Positions 4,411-14,793 of a DNA stretch of 18,494 nt are shown piece by piece. The notes beneath the pieces were generated by a model that searched no databases, was not told the origin of the DNA, and saw only the letters and a program-made list of their open reading frames with translations. The position numbers were made by a program, and so were the translations under genes. The DNA is from Bdellovibrionales bacterium (GTDB lineage: Bacteria > Myxococcota > XYA12-FULL-58-9 > SYDY01). The stretch lies in assembly GCA_005801425.1 (NCBI GenBank), contig SYDY01000094.1, positions 1 to 18,494 of the forward strand, read 5' to 3'. How positions within the stretch are numbered: position 1 is the stretch's first letter; every line of letters begins with the position of its first letter.

Positions 4411-6762
4411 TTAGTTTCGAAGTGGTTTGCCAGTCATCAACAATGACTGCATTCTGCTTTGGGTTTTTTCTGTGCCGCACAAAGAGAGAAACGCTTCTTT
4501 TTCGAGATCAAGATAGTGTTGCTCTGTGAGCTCCGTTCCGGCGGGCACATCGCCACCGCACAGAATATTCACCACATGATTACCGATCAGCGCATCATGC
4601 TCTGAGGCGTATTTACCTTCTTGCATACTCCAAATGCGTGTTTGGATGGTACGTGCAACATCGCGTCCTGCCGCTTTGATGGTACGCGGCAATGCTGGGC
4701 GATATCCTGCATGGGCCATGGAAAGCGCCATTTCACGGGCACCGTACAACAAATCATCACGCTGCAACGTGATGCCATCGCGTGGCATCAAATAACGCAA
4801 ACGCTTGCCTTCTTCAGCACTGGTCGCAACTTTGGCGGTCGCAATTTGCAACGATGCTGTGCCGATAAATGGCAACAGTTCGGCGCCTTCGACATCTTGT
4901 ACGCTCTCGGTGAATCGCTCAACCAAGCGCAAACATCCACCCCCTGCAGGTACCAAACCTGCGCCCACTTCGACCAAACCAATATACGTTTCAGCATGGG
5001 CGTAAGCGGCATCGCAACCCATAGTAATTTCGCATGCACCACCGAACGTGTATTGAAATGGTGCTGCAACCACAGGAATACTGCTGTAACGAAAACGTTG
5101 CACCGTGGCTTGAAACATATCAACAATGTGGGCGATCTGGTCCCAGGCTTGTTGTTGCGCCCCCATGTAAATGAGCATGAGATTTGCGCCAGCACCGAAG
5201 TGTTCACCATCATTACCGATGACCAACGCTTCAAAATTTTTCTCAGCCTCGTCGATGCCTTTGTTCATCATCTCAAGTACATCGCCATCGATGGTATTCA
5301 TCTTGGTATGCACTTGAATGCACAAACATCCTTCGCCAATATCAACCAGCGATGCACCCATGTTGGATGCCACAACACGCGATTTCTCTGATTTGATTGC
5401 ATCAAGTGAGAGATGCTTGCGATGGGTGATCACCGGTTTTGTCTGCTTGTTGGCGACATCATAATATGAACGTTCACCGACAGAACCTGCGTAAAATGAT
5501 GTTTGACCACGGGCAAGCATATCCTTCACCCAGGCAGGCACAGCAATACCTTCTTTTTCCATGCGTGCCACGGACTCTTTAACACCCAAGGCATCCCATA
5601 CTTCAAAAGGTCCGAGATCCCAATTGAAGCCCCATTTCATGGCGTTGTCGACATTGAGAATATCGTCGGCAATTTCACCCACAAGTGCTGCGGCATAGCA
5701 AAGGACATGGGCTGTGGATTTCCAGGCAAAGCGTCCGGCAGCATCATCGAATGCAACCAATGCTTTTAAACGTGCGCCGACGTCTTCGATGTTTTTGATA
5801 GCACCAAGACTATCGAATTTGATTTTCTCTTCGGGACGGTAATCACCCGTTTCGGCATTAAGAACAAGGATCTCTTTACCCACTTTTTTGTAAAACCCTG
5901 CACCAGATTTGGCACCAAAGCGCTTGGTTTCAACAAGCATGGCGAGGGCTTTGGGGATCTTAAACAAGTTGCGTTCTGGATCCTTGGGAAGATTGTCGTA
6001 GCAATTTTGCGCGACGTGAACCAATGTATCGATACCTACGACGTCTGCCAGACGAAACACGCCACTCTTGGGACGGCCCATAGGTTTGGCCGCAATTTTG
6101 TCAACCGATTCAAACGACAGGCCTTCTTCTTCCATGGCCTTGATTGCGCGAACCATGCCGTACACACCGATACGGTTGGCCACAAAGTTGGGTGTATCTT
6201 TGCCGTAAACAATGCCTTTGCCTAGCTTTTCGCCAAGTTCGACGATCTTGTTCATGACCTCGGTTGACGTGTTAGGCCCGGCCACAAGCTCGAGCAACTT
6301 CATGTAACGCACGGGATTAAAAAAGTGCATCACGAGAAAGCGCGAACGAAGCGCAGCAGGCAATACCTGATTCATTGCTGCGATGGAGAGACCGCTCGTA
6401 TTGGATGCAAGCACTGCATCTGATTTCAGATGAGGCGCCACCCGTTCAAATAAACTTTTCTTGATATCAAGGCGTTCGACCACGGCTTCGATGACGAGAT
6501 CACAGGTTTTGAGGCGATCGAGATGATCGTCGAAGTTACCAGGTGTGATCATGCGCGCTGCTGCTGGATCAAAAAACGCTGCGGGTTTGATTTTCAGGGC
6601 ATTTTGAATACCTTGGCGGGCGATCGCATTGCGATCTGCACCTTCTTTGGGAACCATATCCAAAAGATGAACTTTGAATCCCGCACCCGCAAAATGGGCG
6701 GCGATAGCACTCCCCATCACACCGGCACCAAGCACAGCAACTTCTCGACACCAAATAGCCAT
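4411..6762 (-). CDS. fadN: 3-hydroxyacyl-CoA dehydrogenase / enoyl-CoA hydratase (FadN-type)
   Basis: A 783-residue bifunctional beta-oxidation enzyme. The NAD-binding motif GAGVMG is at residues 12-17 and the dehydrogenase catalytic histidine is His146, in HFFNPV. The C-terminal part is a crotonase-fold hydratase. It has the oxyanion-hole segment FGAGANL (~522-528), a catalytic Glu in GGACEIT (~578) and a second Glu in LVEVGAGLVPAGGG (~598). Dehydrogenase first and hydratase last is the FadN order (Bacillus), the reverse of E. coli FadB. It hydrates enoyl-CoA and oxidises the product to 3-ketoacyl-CoA for the adjacent thiolase. The start at 6762 has AAAGGAG 6 nt upstream; a longer reading from 6819 lacks family resemblance. 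No acyl-CoA dehydrogenase gene is in the window. Confidence 0.95.
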   Translation of the reverse strand: MAIWCREVAVLGAGVMGSAIAAHFAGAGFKVHLLDMVPKEGADRNAIARQGIQNALKIKPAAFFDPAAARMITPGNFDDHLDRLKTCDLVIEAVVERLDIKKSLFERVAPHLKSDAVLASNTSGLSIAAMNQVLPAALRSRFLVMHFFNPVRYMKLLELVAGPNTSTEVMNKIVELGEKLGKGIVYGKDTPNFVANRIGVYGMVRAIKAMEEEGLSFESVDKIAAKPMGRPKSGVFRLADVVGIDTLVHVAQNCYDNLPKDPERNLFKIPKALAMLVETKRFGAKSGAGFYKKVGKEILVLNAETGDYRPEEKIKFDSLGAIKNIEDVGARLKALVAFDDAAGRFAWKSTAHVLCYAAALVGEIADDILNVDNAMKWGFNWDLGPFEVWDALGVKESVARMEKEGIAVPAWVKDMLARGQTSFYAGSVGERSYYDVANKQTKPVITHRKHLSLDAIKSEKSRVVASNMGASLVDIGEGCLCIQVHTKMNTIDGDVLEMMNKGIDEAEKNFEALVIGNDGEHFGAGANLMLIYMGAQQQAWDQIAHIVDMFQATVQRFRYSSIPVVAAPFQYTFGGACEITMGCDAAYAHAETYIGLVEVGAGLVPAGGGCLRLVERFTESVQDVEGAELLPFIGTASLQIATAKVATSAEEGKRLRYLMPRDGITLQRDDLLYGAREMALSMAHAGYRPALPRTIKAAGRDVARTIQTRIWSMQEGKYASEHDALIGNHVVNILCGGDVPAGTELTEQHYLDLEKEAFLSLCGTEKTQSRMQSLLMTGKPLRN

Positions 6763-6804
6763 GGATTGCTCCTTTTTAACGGACCCAAGGTGTGTAACTC
6801 TCGC

Positions 6805-7248
6805 ATGATGACAGCGCAAGACACGAGCGATTTAGAACACGAACAAGGGCGGACACAGGGGTCCGCCCCTACAAAAGATAGGCAAGGATATGTTCGTTTG
6901 TTCGTCTATGGGAGTTTAAAACGAGGTTTTGAAAACGAAAGCGTTCTTGAAGGTGCCAAATTTGTGCAAGAAGCACGCACTGTGCCTGGATACGTACTGT
7001 TTGATATGGGTTCCTATCCTGCGTTGGTCGCCCATGGGGACGGCGTGGTGCATGGCGAGATCTTTGATGTTCCTGAGACCATGCTAAGCATGCTCGATAG
7101 CTTTGAATCAGATCCTTATCAACGCGACATCATCCAGCTCCATGCAACCCAAGATGCACATACTTATCTGGTTAAACACGCGCATGTGAAACACTTCCCT
7201 ATTCTCGCGGATGGCAGATGGCACGATCGAGCAAAAGAAGCACCGTAG
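6805..7248 (+). CDS. Gamma-glutamylcyclotransferase-like (GGCT/AIG2 fold) protein
   Basis: A 147-residue protein with the GGCT fold signatures. The N-terminal strand-loop is LFVYGSLKRG; GYVLFDMGSYPALV follows, then GEIFDVPETMLSMLDSFES, in which the acidic residue expected for catalysis lies. Family members release 5-oxoproline from gamma-glutamyl amines or peptides, or act in other gamma-glutamyl turnover; the substrate cannot be read from the sequence. The start is uncertain. ATG 6805 (or 6808) lacks a good Shine-Dalgarno, and its first ~30 codons include a dispersed palindromic repeat. TTG at 6898 is preceded by AAGGA (9-nt spacing) and would begin exactly at the conserved FVYGSL segment (116 residues). 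The 3' end overlaps the convergent small membrane gene by 50 bp. Confidence 0.82.
   Translation: MMTAQDTSDLEHEQGRTQGSAPTKDRQGYVRLFVYGSLKRGFENESVLEGAKFVQEARTVPGYVLFDMGSYPALVAHGDGVVHGEIFDVPETMLSMLDSFESDPYQRDIIQLHATQDAHTYLVKHAHVKHFPILADGRWHDRAKEAP
6847..6878. repeat. Dispersed GC-rich palindromic repeat, copy 1
   Basis: GGGCGGAC (6847-6854) and GTCCGCCC (6861-6868) form a perfect 8-bp inverted repeat around ACAGGG. The 3' part, CCGCCCCTACAAAAGA (6863-6878), is identical over 16 nt to 14807-14822. The element lies inside the longest reading of the GGCT-like gene and about 85-115 nt upstream of the divergent fadN start. It looks like a REP/MITE-type intergenic repeat. Confidence 0.75.
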
Positions 7249-7405
7249 AGGCGATCCAAGTTCCCAAAGCACTGTACCCAATCACCGCGATCACTTCTTC
7301 ATAACTCGCAGCACCAAAGAATACGCGGTCGCTCGGACCAAAGGTGATGTAAGCGGCAAGCAAGCTCATCAGGGGTGCGACCAAAAATGAAACAAAGCGA
7401 CGCAT
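7199..7405 (-). CDS. Small two-helix membrane protein of unknown function
   Basis: A 68-residue protein with two hydrophobic segments, about residues 4-22 (FVSFLVAPLMSLLAAYITF) and 40-60 (AVIGYSALGTWIASTVLLLL). An intervening polar loop (GPSDRVFFGAASYEE) and a short basic tail complete it. I recognise no family. The start has AAAGGG about 9 nt upstream and lies 4 nt after the stop of the LRAT-like gene, so the two are almost certainly co-transcribed. Its 3' end overlaps the convergent GGCT-like gene by 50 bp. The tight pairing with a putative cysteine hydrolase suggests that it anchors, assists or counteracts that protein; this is inference only. Confidence 0.68.
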   Translation of the reverse strand: MRRFVSFLVAPLMSLLAAYITFGPSDRVFFGAASYEEVIAVIGYSALGTWIASTVLLLLDRAICHPRE

Positions 7406-7409
7406 CTTG

Positions 7410-7847
7410 CTACCCTTTCATGAAAATAGGAAAACGTGAAAACCATGCGTCGGAAACACCGCCCGCATGCAAAATGTCCCGTACAAAATGGGAACAGTTG
7501 TGTGTCAATCGGTGATAATCCCAACTTGGATTGGCAATGCGATACTCCAAGCGTTGCTGCGCACCTAATGGATTAGGGATCGCGAGCACATGGCGCGTGA
7601 GCTCTTGCTTGCCTGAATTACTCAAGTAAACCCGATAGCCGAGAGATGACAGCGTAAGCACCGAGGTCCCTCCTGGACCTGCCACATGAAAATAATCATC
7701 GCCACCACACAAGAGAACATGTCCAAAGATATTGGGCATATCGCCCTCCACGACAACCACATCCGCAGTCCCTTGAGAAAAGCACTCTGGATAGCAGCGA
7801 ATGGCCGTATTCCCGAAACCATAACAAGATTGAGAAATGTTCCACAT
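7410..7847 (-). CDS. LRAT-like (permuted NlpC/P60 papain fold) putative cysteine hydrolase/acyltransferase
   Basis: A 145-residue protein. Residues 42-60 (GHVLLCGGDDYFHVAGPGG) and 116-122 (HNCSHFV) match the pattern of LRAT/HRASLS proteins: H followed about 11 residues later by a second H in a 'GDxxxHxA' context, then N-C-x-H-F-V. The candidate triad is His43, His54 and Cys118, in the H-H-C order of circularly permuted papain folds. Family members are thioester-forming acyltransferases, phospholipases or amidases. The bacterial substrate is unknown. There is no signal peptide or membrane segment; three cysteines (8, 18, 22) crowd the N-terminus. The start is firm, with AAAGGAGG 5-6 nt upstream. 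It forms a unit with the small membrane protein 4 nt downstream. No database match was checked. Confidence 0.72.
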   Translation of the reverse strand: MWNISQSCYGFGNTAIRCYPECFSQGTADVVVVEGDMPNIFGHVLLCGGDDYFHVAGPGGTSVLTLSSLGYRVYLSNSGKQELTRHVLAIPNPLGAQQRLEYRIANPSWDYHRLTHNCSHFVRDILHAGGVSDAWFSRFPIFMKG

Positions 7848-8041
7848 GAGATCCTCCTTTTGAGATCACATGCAAAATCCATACCTCTTGCTTATAGGCA
7901 CATGACTCCCATATCCTCCCCAGGGTGCAGTCTTGGATATGTCGGCGACCTTTCAGGCGTTGAACATACATCACCCAAGAAAGCGTAAAAGATTGTGTTT
8001 AACCGCTTTAAGCCCTGATGGGCACGGAGACGGAGGACGCC

Positions 8042-8902
8042 ATGAAACAAACAGTTCTCACCATTCAAGCCCGCAAGGGATCTTCTTCTAAAATCGTCAT
8101 GGTCACGGCATACGACGCCACATTTGCTGGATTGCTTGAAAACGCGGGTGCCGACGTGCTTCTCGTGGGGGATTCGGTCGGCATGGTGGTTCAAGGCCAC
8201 GAGAACACCATCCCTGTCACTTTAGACGACATGGTCTATCATACCCGAGCTGTTGCACGGGGAAGCCATCACGCACTGGTGGTCGCTGATCTTCCATTCA
8301 TGACCTACAAAGAGAGTAGCGTTCAGGCCATGCAAAGCGCCACGCGTTTGATGCAAGACGGACGCGCCCATGCAGTCAAACTCGAAGGCGGACAAGAAAT
8401 CGCCGACAGTGTGCATGCGATAGTCGCCGCCGGCATTCCCGTGATGGGTCACATCGGCCTCACGCCCCAAAGCGTGCATGCGTTGGGTGGCTTTAAAGTA
8501 CAAGGTCGCAAGCAAGAAGCAGCGGCGCTATTACGAGAAGATGCCATCGCTCTTGAAGAAGCCGGATGTTTTGCCCTGGTTCTCGAAGGGATCCCTGCAT
8601 CGCTCGCTGCGCAAATTACACGATCGATCAATATTCCAACCATTGGTATAGGCGCAGGCCCCCACTGCGATGGGCAAGTCCTCGTGTGTTACGATCTCTT
8701 GGGTTTAAATCCACATTTCAAACCTAAGTTTTTAAAACAATATGCACAGCTGCATGAGAACGTCTCCGATGCTGTAAAAAATTACTGCGAAGAAGTACGT
8801 GCTGGAATTTTCCCTGCGTCTGAACACAGTTTCGACGAACCATGGGCCGCGATTAACGACGACGATCTTCCCGAGGGGATCCGTTATGCGGGAAGCCATT
8901 GA
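8042..8902 (+). CDS. panB: 3-methyl-2-oxobutanoate hydroxymethyltransferase
   Basis: A 286-residue enzyme catalysing the first committed step of pantothenate synthesis: 2-oxoisovalerate plus 5,10-methylene-THF to ketopantoate. Family motifs are present: VTAYDATFA near the N-terminus, the metal-binding GDSVGMV block (Asp44), [16 protein letters not shown], the catalytic Glu in LVLEGIPAS and [14 protein letters not shown]. The start at 8042 is preferred over an ATG at 8018 because GGAGG lies 5 nt upstream of it and the N-terminus then matches PanB proteins. The gene overlaps panC by 17 bp, so the pathway pair is translationally coupled. It diverges from the LRAT-like gene across 194 bp in which I see no convincing promoter. 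Confidence 0.97.
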
Positions 8903-9728
8903 AATTTTTTATGATGTTGGAAGCATACGCGCATGGTCTGATCGCCATATCGTAAACAAGCAACGTATCGCGCTTGTGCCCACCATGGGCGCATTGCATG
9001 AAGGCCATTTGTCGCTTGTCCGCGAAGCAAAAAAACATGGTGAGCGCGTGCTTGCGAGCATCTTCGTCAATCCGACACAATTTGGACCAAGCGAAGATCT
9101 GGCACGGTATCCACGGGATCTGAATGGCGATGTGGCCAAGCTACATTCGGCCGGATGCGATGCTGTGTTTGCACCATCGCCTGATATCATTTATCCACCC
9201 GGATTTAAGACACGGATCGTCGTAGACGAGTTATCCCAACATCTTTGCGGTGCATCCAGGCCTACGCATTTTTCTGGTGTATGTACTGTTGTGAGCATTT
9301 TGTTTCGTATCACCCGTTGTCATGCTGCTGTCTTTGGAGAAAAAGACTTTCAGCAACTTGCGATCATCAGACGTTTGACACGCGATCTTCATCTTGATGT
9401 GGAGATCATAGGATGTCCCATCGTGCGTGAAAACGATGGTCTCGCCATGAGTTCACGCAATATGAATTTAGCACCCGAAGCACGTCGGCAAGCATCCGTT
9501 TTGTATCAAGCCCTGTGTGCAGCACGAGACTCAGGATATCGCGAAAGGCGTAACTTGATTGAGATCGCCACAGCGATCATCACGCAGGCTTCAGAGGCAC
9601 ACATTGATTATATTGAAGTGGTTGATGCAGAAACACTAGAGCCTATCAATTGCGTGAATAAACCCGCACGTATGGCTCTGGCCGTGAATTTTTTAGGGGC
9701 ACGGTTGATTGATAATATCGAGCTATAA
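8886..9728 (+). CDS. panC: Pantothenate synthetase (pantoate-beta-alanine ligase)
   Basis: A 280-residue enzyme, the usual PanC length, joining pantoate and beta-alanine with ATP through a pantoyl-adenylate. It has the nucleotidyltransferase HIGH motif in [14 protein letters not shown], then [34 protein letters not shown] and the KMSKS-equivalent segment [12 protein letters not shown]. The ATG at 8886 is preceded by GAGGGG and lies inside the last codons of panB. The product feeds coenzyme A synthesis. Two codons at the 3' end overlap the stop of the convergent unknown gene (6 bp). panD is not in the window. Confidence 0.97.
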
Positions 9729-10463
9729 AGGATCTGGCATCCCCGGGGGTGCAAAAATCCACGCAATGAATTCATCGAATTCTTCGTCGGTTTCTGGAAA
9801 TTTTCCAGGTTTTACACGACGTGGCCATTCATTAATGCGTTTAAATAATTCACGAAATGTGGCCCGTGGATCGTTGAGAAGCTGCAATCCCGTGCCTCCC
9901 GTCACCACATGCATCAGCAACAGCTTTGCCCGCATTTCTGCCTGCTGCAAACGCTGCAATAAAACGGTGATCCTGCGAATACGCTCAGCCATAGGGCCAC
10001 GCATTTGATCCAGTTGAAACTCGCTGATGCGCGCAAGATCAATATCAGAACCCATGTTTTTCATGAGAGTATCAAGACCCCCTTCATGCAATTCGCCTAG
10101 AATTTCGGTGATGGAATTAAGCGCAGATAACGCCTCAACTTCGGCCTTGGCCCCCACACCCTTGGCAAGAGAAACACCGTCGGCTTTAGAGGAACCCTCA
10201 CGCCTTGGATCGCGTGCCTGCCTTGTGTCCTCTTTTTTAGAAAGATTTTGCTGACTGCCACGATTTTTTTCCGAGGCATCAACACGCTTTTGCATGCCAT
10301 CGATAGCGCGCGCACGGTTCGCTGCATCACTCGCTGATTTTGCAGCCTCTTTTGCAAGGGCCTCCTTGGAACGGAGAACAGCGTTATGGGCATCATCGGC
10401 GAAATGATCCTCCGCGCCAAAATCTGCCGGAGGTGCTTGGGGTTCTATGGGTTTAATCGACAT
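9723..10463 (-). CDS. Unknown protein: charged/low-complexity N-terminus, helical C-terminus
   Basis: A 246-residue soluble protein; no family recognised. Residues 1-20 are proline/acid rich and 25-60 are Ala/Lys/Arg-rich and predicted helical. Residues 60-95 are polar and very basic/acidic (probably disordered). Residues 100-210 look like a compact helical domain containing heptad-like QLDQMRGPMAERIRRITVLLQRLQQAE. The C-terminus (FPETDEEFDEFIAWIFAPP) ends acidic then hydrophobic. There is no signal peptide or membrane segment. It follows ssb on the same strand by 51 nt, across a perfect dyad. AAGG stands just before the ATG, and TATACT in that gap might be a -10. Convergent with panC, overlapping 6 bp. 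Confidence 0.75.
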   Translation of the reverse strand: MSIKPIEPQAPPADFGAEDHFADDAHNAVLRSKEALAKEAAKSASDAANRARAIDGMQKRVDASEKNRGSQQNLSKKEDTRQARDPRREGSSKADGVSLAKGVGAKAEVEALSALNSITEILGELHEGGLDTLMKNMGSDIDLARISEFQLDQMRGPMAERIRRITVLLQRLQQAEMRAKLLLMHVVTGGTGLQLLNDPRATFRELFKRINEWPRRVKPGKFPETDEEFDEFIAWIFAPPGMPDPL

Positions 10464-11175: not shown

Positions 11176-12933
11176 ATGTTTACTGTAACCGTTACAGAAA
11201 AAGGTGCCGAGCCGACCATTCTTTCATTTGATCAGAATGAGGTCACCATCGGCCGCGTGCCTGGAAATGATATTATCCTGCCAAAAACCAATATTTCGAA
11301 GCAACACGCAATCATTGAATACAAAACGGACGAAACGTTTGTGGTTACCGATGCTAAGAGCACCAACGGAACCTATGTTAATGCGCGCAAAATCGATGCA
11401 CCCGTGCGACTCATCGCAGGCGATAGGATCTCAGTCGGGGATTTTCTCATTGAAGTATCCATAGAAACAGCGCATCGCTCACAGCCTCATCCCCCGCCGC
11501 CGCCTCATGAAGCCCGTGAATTTGCACTCCCAGAGCCATTCCTGCACTTCACAGAAGAAACACCGCCTTTAGCAACTCCCAATATGGTATTCGCAGCATC
11601 GGACTACACCGATTCGATGCTCTTGCGTATTATTGAAAGTCCCAAGGCGCTCTCCAAAAAAAGTCATAATACTCAAAGTGTGGGCCATTTGGTCGAAAAA
11701 TCAGCCCATCAGGTGCGGAGCCATTTAGGCAAAAAACACGGACTTCCTCCAAACATACCCGTTCCTAGCGATGACCCTGCCGTCGAGGAAGCACTCGAAC
11801 AAGCCGTTCGCGAATTGGTAGCAGATCTGGAAATCAACGGGAAACTTCCTGGAGACCAAGACACCGACAATTTGGTGCATTCGATCCTGATCGAAGCGCT
11901 CTTGCGCTCGCCGTTTGAAGAATTACTGCACGACGAATCGGTACTAGAGATTGTCGTCACCGGGCCCTCCCATATTTTTGCAAGGCGCAATGCCGCACTC
12001 GAACCCTTTGACGGTGCATTTGCCGATGGCCCTGCCATCATTCGAGGCCTCAAAGGTCTTCTGGGTGAACACGCCAAACGTCTTAGCGCCGACAAAACCG
12101 TTTTAGATATCCGACTTGCACGTGGTCTTCATATTCAAGCCCTGCTCCCTCCCTTATGTGAACATCCAACCATTCGTATCAGTCGAACACGCGCAGATGC
12201 CGTTGAACTCGACGATCTGGTGATGGAAGAGTGTCTGGATGCCAACATGGCACAATTTCTAGACGTGTGTGTTCAAGGTCGAAAAAACATCTTATTTTCT
12301 GGGGCTCCAGGAACACGCCGCGTGCAAATCATGTCAGGTGTGGCAGGCATCATTAGTTTCGACGAACGTGTTGTAAGTATTGAAACCCGCGATACCCTCG
12401 GGATCCAGCTTCCTCTGCTAACCCGTGTGCGGCCCTCAGTCACTGAGCGACGCGCAGCACTGATCCACGCCGTTGCCTTCAATCCTGAGCGCATACTCAT
12501 TGACCAGCTTGATCGCACACTGGCTTTTGAGTTTCTTGCAACATTACAATCATGCTGTTGGGGTTCTATGGCGGCCATTGAAGCCAATACGCCGCGTCAA
12601 GCACTTGCGCGTCTGGCCAATTTGGCTATGGCCGGAGAGCATCATCTTAAACCAGAAGCCGCAGATCAATTGGTGAGCGAAGCCATCGATATCGTGGTCC
12701 ATTTGATGCAGTTTGCCGATGGTTCGGAGCGCATCGTACGTATCAGCGAGGTGATGCCCATCATCGAAGGTGAAATCGGCCTACGCGACTTGTTTGTATT
12801 TAAGCCCAATGGACATGCCGACGGTGGACGCGTTACAGGAACATTTGGCCCCACAGGTGCACAGCCTACGTTTTTGAAGGCACTGCAATCTTTGGGGATC
12901 GATATCAATTCACAGATCTTTGAGACAAATTGA
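11176..12933 (+). CDS. FHA domain fused to a degenerate CpaF/TadA-type secretion ATPase domain (pseudo-ATPase)
   Basis: A 585-residue protein. Residues 1-95 are an FHA phosphothreonine-binding domain with its key residues: Gly26-Arg27, Ser41 and His44 in SKQH, Asn64-Gly65 in STNGTYVN. A Pro-rich linker (100-130) follows. Residues ~165-585 resemble CpaF/TadA, the ATPase of Flp/Tad pilus and type II/IV secretion machines. The match includes LVHSILIEALLRSPFEELLHD and C-terminal IVVHLMQFADGSERIVRISEV-type sequence. The catalytic parts are gone: the P-loop position reads SGAPGTRRVQ (375-384) instead of GxxGxGKT/S, the Walker B region reads RILIDQLDR (439-447) instead of the usual R-I-V-V-G-E-x-R-G, and the histidine of TTIHAN is replaced (AAIEAN). 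The reading frame is intact, so it is a pseudoenzyme, not a frameshift. It precedes a double-FHA membrane protein by 15 nt. Confidence 0.87.
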   Translation: MFTVTVTEKGAEPTILSFDQNEVTIGRVPGNDIILPKTNISKQHAIIEYKTDETFVVTDAKSTNGTYVNARKIDAPVRLIAGDRISVGDFLIEVSIETAHRSQPHPPPPPHEAREFALPEPFLHFTEETPPLATPNMVFAASDYTDSMLLRIIESPKALSKKSHNTQSVGHLVEKSAHQVRSHLGKKHGLPPNIPVPSDDPAVEEALEQAVRELVADLEINGKLPGDQDTDNLVHSILIEALLRSPFEELLHDESVLEIVVTGPSHIFARRNAALEPFDGAFADGPAIIRGLKGLLGEHAKRLSADKTVLDIRLARGLHIQALLPPLCEHPTIRISRTRADAVELDDLVMEECLDANMAQFLDVCVQGRKNILFSGAPGTRRVQIMSGVAGIISFDERVVSIETRDTLGIQLPLLTRVRPSVTERRAALIHAVAFNPERILIDQLDRTLAFEFLATLQSCCWGSMAAIEANTPRQALARLANLAMAGEHHLKPEAADQLVSEAIDIVVHLMQFADGSERIVRISEVMPIIEGEIGLRDLFVFKPNGHADGGRVTGTFGPTGAQPTFLKALQSLGIDINSQIFETN

Positions 12934-12948
12934 TAAGGTTTACCCGAC

Positions 12949-14793
12949 ATGGCGCAGATCGTAGTACACAGTCCTCGCGATTCAGAAGCACGTGTTTTCC
13001 CCTTGGTGGATCTTCAGGTCATCATCGGTCGTGATCAGGACGTTGAACTTCCCCTCGATGACACCTCCATTTCAAGGCGCCACGCACGGATATTTTTTGA
13101 AAATTCTGGGCACTATGTGGAAGATTTAGGAAGCGTCAATGGTATATCACTCAATGGACAACCCGTTGCTTCACGCAAACGACTTCGCCCTGGTATGGAA
13201 ATAACTGTCGGCGATTGCCTTCTTGAGTATACATTTACTGCCGAAGAATCTGCACGATTCGCATTGCTTGGGGTATCTCCTGAAGTTGAAGGGGAATTGT
13301 ATCTTCTTCCGAAGGAAGGTGAATCCAGCATTGGCCGAGACAAAGAAGCAAGCATTGTGATCGATCATGCGTCTCTCTCACGCAAACATGCAAGCATTGT
13401 CGTCGATGGCCCTACGGTTGTGATCGAAGATCAAGGAAGCGGCAATGGAACACGCATTGGACGTGACAAAATAAAACGACGCGCCGCACAGCTGGGCGAT
13501 CACATCTTTTTTGGCAACATTGAAATGATACTTACCCATGGGAGCCTTGATCACCCCAAACATCCCCATGCCATTGCCACACCGCGCTGGATATTCATGG
13601 TGATCGGCACCGTGATTGCATTGGGCATCATTGCAGCCGCTGCAAAACGTGTCGCATGGCAGGCACAAGAAGCCACCGGATCCCTGCAAGATGCTTTTGA
13701 CCGCACCGTACGTGCATCCATTGATTCTGCCAAAAAATATACCCAGGAAGGCAAATGGGAAGAAGCAAGTACAGCCTATACACAAGCTTTGGATCGCGAC
13801 CCTATCAATCCTGATGCACTCAAAGGGCTTCTACAAGCGGAACAAGACACTGCCGATGCACGCTTGATTTCCGATGCAAAAGCCGCCGCACAAAATCCGA
13901 CAAAACTTCCTGAAGCAATCACCATCCTAACCCGAATCACTGCCGGAAGTAATTTGTATTCACAAGCACAAACACTTCTTGCGGACCTAACAACTCTAGC
14001 AGAAAAAAACTGGATCCAGGATGCCAATCAAGCCTGTCGTCAAGGACAATGGTCTGCATGCCAACGCTGGGCAGCCGCTATGTTGCGTATTGTTCCGAAT
14101 CACACCGCAGCACGCGCTTTGATCTTCGAAGCCCAAGTAGGCCTGGATCATGAAGGCCAATCTTTTGCACCATGGGGCATGGAAGACACAACATGGCGAC
14201 GGATTGAAACAGATCTGCGTCGACGTCATCCTAATTTCGGGGCACTGCGTGCAGCCATGCGGATGACAAGCGGAGATACAGAAGGTGCACTGCAATTGAT
14301 TTCGCATGCTGGGTCCCAAGGGACCGACCGGATCAGAAATACCATTCAACGCATCAATCAATCGATGGAAATTGGCGCCAAAGCCACCGAAGATGCGCAA
14401 CGAGAACAAGCGATGAATACATTCGAAGGTGCCGTTGCACTATTTGACAGCATGATCCCACCTGTTGTTCCCTCACCAACCCGGCTGGCTATGGCACATC
14501 AGGCAGCCAATGCTGCAGCGCTGCTTGCCGATCACGCGTACCAACGCGGTGATTATCTCAATGCAAAAAAAGCAATCAATCGCGGACTTCTACTGGCACC
14601 TGGCCATGTGGAACTCTTGCGCGAAAAATCGGTGCTAGAAGAACGTGCCAAAGTATTGCTTGATGGCACCGCAGATCAACCGTCAAACGACAATCGTCGC
14701 TGCGGTACACTTCGTGACATTTTGGGAATGATCGACAGCAACACCGAAATATACAAACAAGCGGAACAGATGACAAAATCATGTAAACATTAG
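12949..14793 (+). CDS. Double-FHA, single-pass membrane protein with TPR-rich C-terminal region
   Basis: A 614-residue protein. FHA1 (about 1-95) has Gly27-Arg28, the SRRH block at 42-45 and Asn64-Gly65, but GSVNGIS in place of the usual STNGT. FHA2 (about 105-195) has Gly129-Arg130, SRKH at 144-147 and GNGT at 165-168. One hydrophobic helix lies at about 213-232. The remaining 380 residues are helical, with TPR-like units around 258-292 (KKYTQEGKWEEASTAYTQAL), 352-388 and 520-557. A basic N-side flank suggests FHA domains in the cytoplasm and TPRs outside or in the periplasm. It probably reads phosphothreonine signals and couples them to an envelope assembly. It is co-directional with, and 15 nt after, the FHA/pseudo-ATPase gene. 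No kinase gene is in the window. Confidence 0.88.
   Translation: MAQIVVHSPRDSEARVFPLVDLQVIIGRDQDVELPLDDTSISRRHARIFFENSGHYVEDLGSVNGISLNGQPVASRKRLRPGMEITVGDCLLEYTFTAEESARFALLGVSPEVEGELYLLPKEGESSIGRDKEASIVIDHASLSRKHASIVVDGPTVVIEDQGSGNGTRIGRDKIKRRAAQLGDHIFFGNIEMILTHGSLDHPKHPHAIATPRWIFMVIGTVIALGIIAAAAKRVAWQAQEATGSLQDAFDRTVRASIDSAKKYTQEGKWEEASTAYTQALDRDPINPDALKGLLQAEQDTADARLISDAKAAAQNPTKLPEAITILTRITAGSNLYSQAQTLLADLTTLAEKNWIQDANQACRQGQWSACQRWAAAMLRIVPNHTAARALIFEAQVGLDHEGQSFAPWGMEDTTWRRIETDLRRRHPNFGALRAAMRMTSGDTEGALQLISHAGSQGTDRIRNTIQRINQSMEIGAKATEDAQREQAMNTFEGAVALFDSMIPPVVPSPTRLAMAHQAANAAALLADHAYQRGDYLNAKKAINRGLLLAPGHVELLREKSVLEERAKVLLDGTADQPSNDNRRCGTLRDILGMIDSNTEIYKQAEQMTKSCKH

Follow-up and report, generated by a model that had tools for sequence, protein, structure and literature searches.

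The window analysed here, a stretch of 18,494 nucleotides from a Bdellovibrionales bacterium (GTDB phylum Myxococcota), carries a gene in which an FHA domain is fused to a CpaF-type secretion ATPase domain devoid of its catalytic motifs. The frame is open over 585 codons, with zero stops or frameshifts (Table 1). Pfam recognizes an FHA domain at residues 23-88 (E 2.9e-19) and a T2SSE domain at residues 246-508 (E 9.3e-7, above the gathering score). NCBIfam models for TadA/VirB11/TrbB ATPases match with E-values of 1e-14 to 8e-32, all far below the equivalog cut-offs, and the two collections together place the T2SSE/VirB11/TadA-type domain at about 220-530. Comparison with solved CpaF (8rkd, 8rjf, 9e24) by phmmer gives a continuous alignment over residues 210-575 (E about 1e-37). 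The AlphaFold2 model, obtained with 25 aligned relatives, has a mean pLDDT of 83.6: about 95 for the FHA domain and mostly 85-97 for the CpaF part, with a core at about 90. The best solved matches of this model are CpaF with ADP, apo CpaF and CpaF with AMPPNP (Z 32.5-35.1, about 409 residues). With 8rjf, 409 residues are aligned at Z 35.1, and the CpaF fold (an N-terminal and a RecA-type domain, about 420 residues) is present. The FHA part matches FHA structures (Z about 15-16). The protein thus has the same fold as CpaF/TadA over residues 164-585. It differs in that the N-terminal extension of CpaF is replaced by an FHA domain and in that the catalytic residues are lost; as the fold is kept, the loss is confined to catalysis. 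The sequence-only reading had described a continuous homologous frame with a CpaF/TadA-like fold, and both points are borne out by the profile searches and the structure overlay.

Table 1. Coordinates of the kilF-kilD region in the window.
Feature	Position	Strand	Evidence
Degenerate KilF orthologue, FHA - disordered linker - CpaF/VirB11-type domain, 585 aa	11176..12933	+	domain searches, predicted structure, orthology
FHA domain, residues 1-96	11176..11463	+	Pfam, predicted and matched structures, column counts
Pro-rich disordered linker, residues ~97-165	11464..11670	+	AlphaFold2 pLDDT <50 for 99-165
CpaF/VirB11-type domain, residues 166-585, complete fold, catalytic motifs lost	11671..12930	+	CpaF alignment, AlphaFold2, structure matches
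Former Walker A at residues 375-383, SGAPGTRRV (SGGTGSGKT in intact copies)	12298..12324	+	orthologue columns, CpaF alignment
Former Asp box at residues 401-406, SIETRD (T(V/I)EDAA in intact copies)	12376..12393	+	orthologue columns
Former Walker B at residues 440-447, ILIDQLDR (I(V/I)VGECRG in intact copies)	12493..12516	+	orthologue columns, CpaF alignment
Former His box at residues 466-473, AAIEANTP (TT(L/V/I)HANTP in intact copies)	12571..12594	+	orthologue columns, CpaF alignment
KilD-like partner with two FHA domains, a single TM segment (residues 214-232) and a TPR region	12949..14793	+	Pfam, synteny

Motif columns were counted in 66 aligned orthologues, 51 intact and 15 degenerate. The Walker A lysine (position 382) is present in 51/51 intact copies and replaced by Arg in the window protein, the Asp-box aspartate (position 404, 51/51) by Thr, the Walker B glutamate (position 444, 50/51) by Gln and the His-box histidine (position 469, 51/51) by Glu. 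Gly-Glu of Walker B has become Asp-Gln, and the Walker A threonine is also gone (columns 381, 382 and 383 being Gly, Lys and Thr); Glu403 in the Asp box is retained, as is Arg313. In the alignment to solved CpaF, GTRRV is paired with GSGKT, IDQ with VGE and AIEANTP with a TLHANSP-type sequence. The losses first read at the P-loop, the Walker B/Glu region and the histidine therefore all fall on motif columns, and the Asp box is a fourth altered signature. The protein has no alternative P-loop elsewhere in its sequence. An alternative genetic code or a frameshift was considered for this gene and dropped, the frame being open and alignable end to end. The FHA domain presents the opposite picture: it has the residues predicted to bind phosphothreonine (Arg, Ser and Asn in the FHA loops), and these are invariant, R27, S41, K42 and N64 in 66/66 orthologues and N69 in 65/66. 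Such residues, in the same fold, are also found in GarA/OdhI and EmbR, which, unlike the window protein, have no secretion-ATPase domain. Judging from these residues, the FHA control that had been proposed for the protein is plausible.

The gene is an orthologue of kilF. In Myxococcus xanthus, KilF (MXAN_3107) is the motor of the Kil/Tad-like contact-killing pilus and is described as a fusion protein with an FHA domain at its N-terminus; the published order of Kil cluster 1 is kilA-kilC-kilF-kilD, kilD being directly downstream of kilF (PMC8460266, PMC12075869). In M. xanthus AM003 (L204) and G014 (L047) we observed an A24 peptidase, a secretin with pilus N-domain (PF13629), the FHA-CpaF protein and a double-FHA protein, in that order. 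This corresponds to the published order and so identifies the window gene as a KilF orthologue; its product can be aligned with M. xanthus KilF over the whole length (about 31% identity). Full-length FHA-CpaF orthologues were found across Myxococcota. A contig scan with the window protein as single query confirmed nothing, and an order-level orthologue alignment was needed as query. A record labelled Comamonas sp. KCTC 72670 (L208, BNCN01000010.1) carries a Myxococcus-type kilF and is probably a mislabelled or contaminated assembly.

As in M. xanthus, the N-terminal FHA domain is followed by a full-length CpaF-type domain and the gene by a KilD-type double-FHA gene. The latter begins 15 bp past the kilF stop and is co-directional, and the two genes probably form an operon. 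The kilF-kilD pair is conserved across the phylum, KilD being absent or non-adjacent in several degenerate lineages (G005, G010, G050 and G052). The locus is syntenic among genomes of the window's order: gene order is ssb-kilF(degenerate)-kilD-polyprenyl synthase-pgi-ygfZ in the window and ssb-BrkB-kilF(degenerate)-kilD-polyprenyl synthase-ygfZ in G001. It is ssb-BrkB-kilF-kilD, without kilC, in G002, BrkB-kilC-kilF-kilD-polyprenyl synthase-ygfZ in G003 and kilC-kilF-kilD in G004. Two other ORFs of the window, at 9723-10463 (-), between panC and ssb, and at 7410-7847 (-), upstream of panB, have no Pfam match.

The window differs from the M. xanthus Kil locus, first in the four catalytic residues, second in that neither kilA nor kilC is present upstream of kilF, and third in the rest of the host genome, which lacks the Kil core. 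This genome is a draft of 3.38 Mb in 121 contigs, estimated 100% complete. It was searched for an intact CpaF paralogue and for TadB/TadC, and neither was found: apart from KilF, the only proteins with T2SSE are two PilB/GspE and a PilT, no platform of the TadB/TadC (KilG/H) type is present, unlike the usual setting of CpaF/TadA, and T2SSF domains occur only in two tandem-domain PilC/GspF proteins of 401 and 409 aa, located in pilus/T2SS loci. The genome contains no KilC-type secretin (PF13629), its only two secretins being of 667 and 956 aa, and no KilB/CpaB (RcpC). Absence calls in draft genomes depend on completeness, and here three markers agree. Without platform, Kil/Tad secretin, CpaB or another CpaF, no Kil/Tad pilus can be built. 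Given the motif loss and the absent machine, this KilF would not be able to power pilus polymerisation.

The same absences bear on the suggestion of the sequence-only reading that the protein is a regulatory or structural subunit of a Tad/T2SS-like machine. A structural subunit it probably is not, as the host genome has no TadB/C-type platform, Tad/Kil secretin or CpaB/RcpC. In its remaining form, this explanation has the dead CpaF-type ring docking on the platform of the type IV pilus or T2SS still present and modulating the motor there. It is the strongest rival to the explanation given below, and we nevertheless regard it as unlikely. Candidate partners are at hand in the two PilB/GspE, the PilT and the two PilC/GspF, and the fold of a docking-competent CpaF is preserved in the model; yet CpaF-type and PilB-type ATPases have different platforms, all three Tad components are absent, and kilF adjoins no pilus gene in the window.

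The inactive form had been thought unusual, but at least 9 families of the phylum have it, and the motif loss is common to 15 of the 66 aligned orthologues: G000 (the window's genome, f1), G001 (f2), G005 (f6, P-loop kept), G008, G017 and G023 (f7), G010 (f9), G022 (f18), G027 (f19), G043, G054 and G056 (f21), G050 and G194 (f22) and G052 (f24). Families f3, f4 and f5 of the window's own order have an intact KilF. Named relatives with motif loss include Polyangium sp. (L222), Byssovorax sp. (L227) and many Myxococcales bins. As in the window, these copies (G001, G005, G052, G054, L222, L227 and others) have an intact FHA domain and have lost ATPase motifs, but the lost residues vary by lineage: in L234, L236 and L237 the P-loop is shortened to SGYGRLVMLG, and G005 retains a GxxxxGKT loop, the other motifs being lost. 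The number of losses was counted on one marker gene, rpoB, and not on the full-length KilF gene tree, which is unusable for this purpose because long degenerate branches attract each other. Mapped on the rpoB tree, the degenerate copies require 6 changes, of which well-supported branches force at least 3. A single degenerate clade is rejected (p-AU 1.3e-5); one loss for the three degenerate families of the window's order (f1, f2, f6) is allowed (p-AU 0.47). Motif loss thus arose elsewhere in the phylum at least twice, and probably three or more times. Since the lost residues differ between lineages and a single origin is rejected, the losses are largely parallel, and such a repeated change suggests a distinct function for the dead motor. 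In a survey, Sorangium, Polyangium, Haliangiales and Nannocystales were reported as lacking Tad/Kil genes (PMC10196010), which fits the motif-lost KilF copies of Polyangium and others.

In the degenerate-KilF genomes tested, the Kil core is absent in nearly all, as in the host of the window. It is lost in 14/15 degenerate genomes versus 3/21 intact ones; PF13629 is present in 1/15 versus 18/21 (Fisher p 3e-6, a test that ignores phylogeny) and RcpC in 1/15 versus 13/15. When Kil loss was compared with motif loss over independent pairs, the direction was the same every time, but supported pairs were not numerous enough to reach significance. Kil-core loss therefore coincides with motif loss, over few independent events and not significantly after phylogenetic correction. 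G017, the sole exception, carries an additional, intact FHA-CpaF in a separate Tad cluster that also includes RcpC, secretin and TadB/C-type genes. This genome (L066 2133-4214 and L065 3333-5069) offers a natural side-by-side comparison of a degenerate KilF with an intact FHA-CpaF (SGGTGSGKTT, RPDRIVVGECRG, TLHANSP). Two other genomes inform on the order of events: KilF of G002 (L039 7580-9619) is near-intact, with Walker B Glu changed to Asp, and KilF of G016 (L071 3619-5709) is near-intact with an altered P-loop and HAN changed to HAH. Both genomes are without Kil secretin or CpaB, and these copies are apparent early stages. As the Kil core is missing there while the motifs are nearly intact, loss of the machine appears to precede loss of the motifs. 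In genomes without a Tad system we also observed short proteins (317-422 aa) of diverged sequence that carry two weakly scoring T2SSF domains (G043:C11:396273-397154, G027:C16:403558-404337, G056:C322:6150-7028, G010:C44:6523-7416); they could be odd platform proteins.

Such a sequence of events is also what would be expected of a slowly decaying relic, in which the motifs are lost by drift after pilus loss and the open frame survives by chance, and the selection acting on the two domains has to be considered. The degenerate ATPase domain evolves several-fold faster (tree branches of 1.3-9.7 versus a median of 0.27 for intact copies), and the two early stages are in keeping with decay. Domain identities were compared in pairs matched for rpoB identity (0.70-0.72): in the intact-intact, intact-degenerate and degenerate-degenerate classes, the mean values are 0.53, 0.54 and 0.58 for the FHA domain and 0.68, 0.33 and 0.26 for the ATPase domain. 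FHA is more conserved than ATPase in 14/14 degenerate genomes with rpoB, and the reverse holds in 12/13 intact ones. Constraint has therefore shifted selectively, that on the FHA domain being undiminished, which speaks against a relic. In other lineages the dead ATPase domains evolve under strong purifying selection in close pairs, dN/dS being 0.02-0.12 in six of them: 0.019-0.042 among L234, L236 and L237 (KilF at about 6001-8210), the close relatives with shortened P-loop, 0.08-0.09 in f21, and 0.12. More distant degenerate pairs give 0.19-0.74, and the upper value, for L222/L231, indicates that constraint on the dead domain varies. Between the window KilF and its nearest available relatives synonymous sites are saturated, so for this lineage it is the open frame that carries the argument: in simulations of neutral drift about 8-10 stops accumulate by a comparable divergence, with 8.5 at 38% identity, where 0/200 runs stayed stop-free. 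All 15 degenerate copies are full-length frames, one assembly-type split (G056) aside. A decaying relic is accordingly quite improbable. With the loss shared by orthologues and the fold kept, the original description of a stable pseudo-ATPase holds.

Less probable still, and by our estimate very much so, is an unorthodox binding of nucleotide, with Arg382 standing in for the lysine and the protein acting as a nucleotide sensor. The retained Glu403 and Arg313 and the GxxxxGKT loop of G005 would suit it, but the window protein lacks both the Lys and the Thr of Walker A as well as Asp404, Glu444 and His469, and other degenerate copies have the P-loop deleted altogether (L234, L236, L237). An assembly or sequencing artefact, for which only the 121 contigs of the draft could be invoked, is refuted for the phenomenon as a whole by the same kind of loss in independent genomes. 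For the single gene it is highly improbable, the ATPase region being free of frameshifts and similar to the neighbouring genes in codon-position composition.

The explanation that we favour, and consider somewhat better than evenly probable, is that a catalytically dead KilF has been kept together with KilD as an FHA scaffold after loss of the pilus. The pilus is gone from this lineage, and the ATPase domain keeps its fold without the residues that bind and hydrolyse ATP, FHA and KilD remaining. KilF would now work without ATP: its FHA domain would bind a partner that a Ser/Thr kinase has phosphorylated on threonine, its CpaF-type domain would form oligomers or retain a partner, and the complex would be tethered to the inner membrane through KilD. 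Ancestrally, pilus assembly at prey contacts would have been the task of the FHA/KilF/KilD layer, and the phospho-signalling half would here have outlived the motor half. Under the terms used, pseudo-enzymes among secretion and pilus ATPases were not found in the open-licence literature searched.

More broadly, and more tentatively, since we hold this a little short of an even chance, several parallel conversions within Myxococcota may have turned the predation-pilus motor into a conserved pilus-independent pseudo-ATPase signalling scaffold with KilD. If so, the FHA/KilF/KilD layer would have had a function apart from the pilus from the start, perhaps even in predators whose Kil system is intact. 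A KilF pseudo-enzyme arises repeatedly, in step with pilus loss and with the phosphopeptide-reading domain untouched, and the motor function of KilF is thereby separated from a second, selectable function that can now be tested, through a possible non-catalytic role of M. xanthus KilF and through what KilD and the FHA domains read at prey contact. Surveys of predation systems can be refined in the same way: lineages scored without Tad/Kil, such as Polyangium (PMC10196010), can carry a KilF homologue, so KilF alone is not evidence for a pilus.
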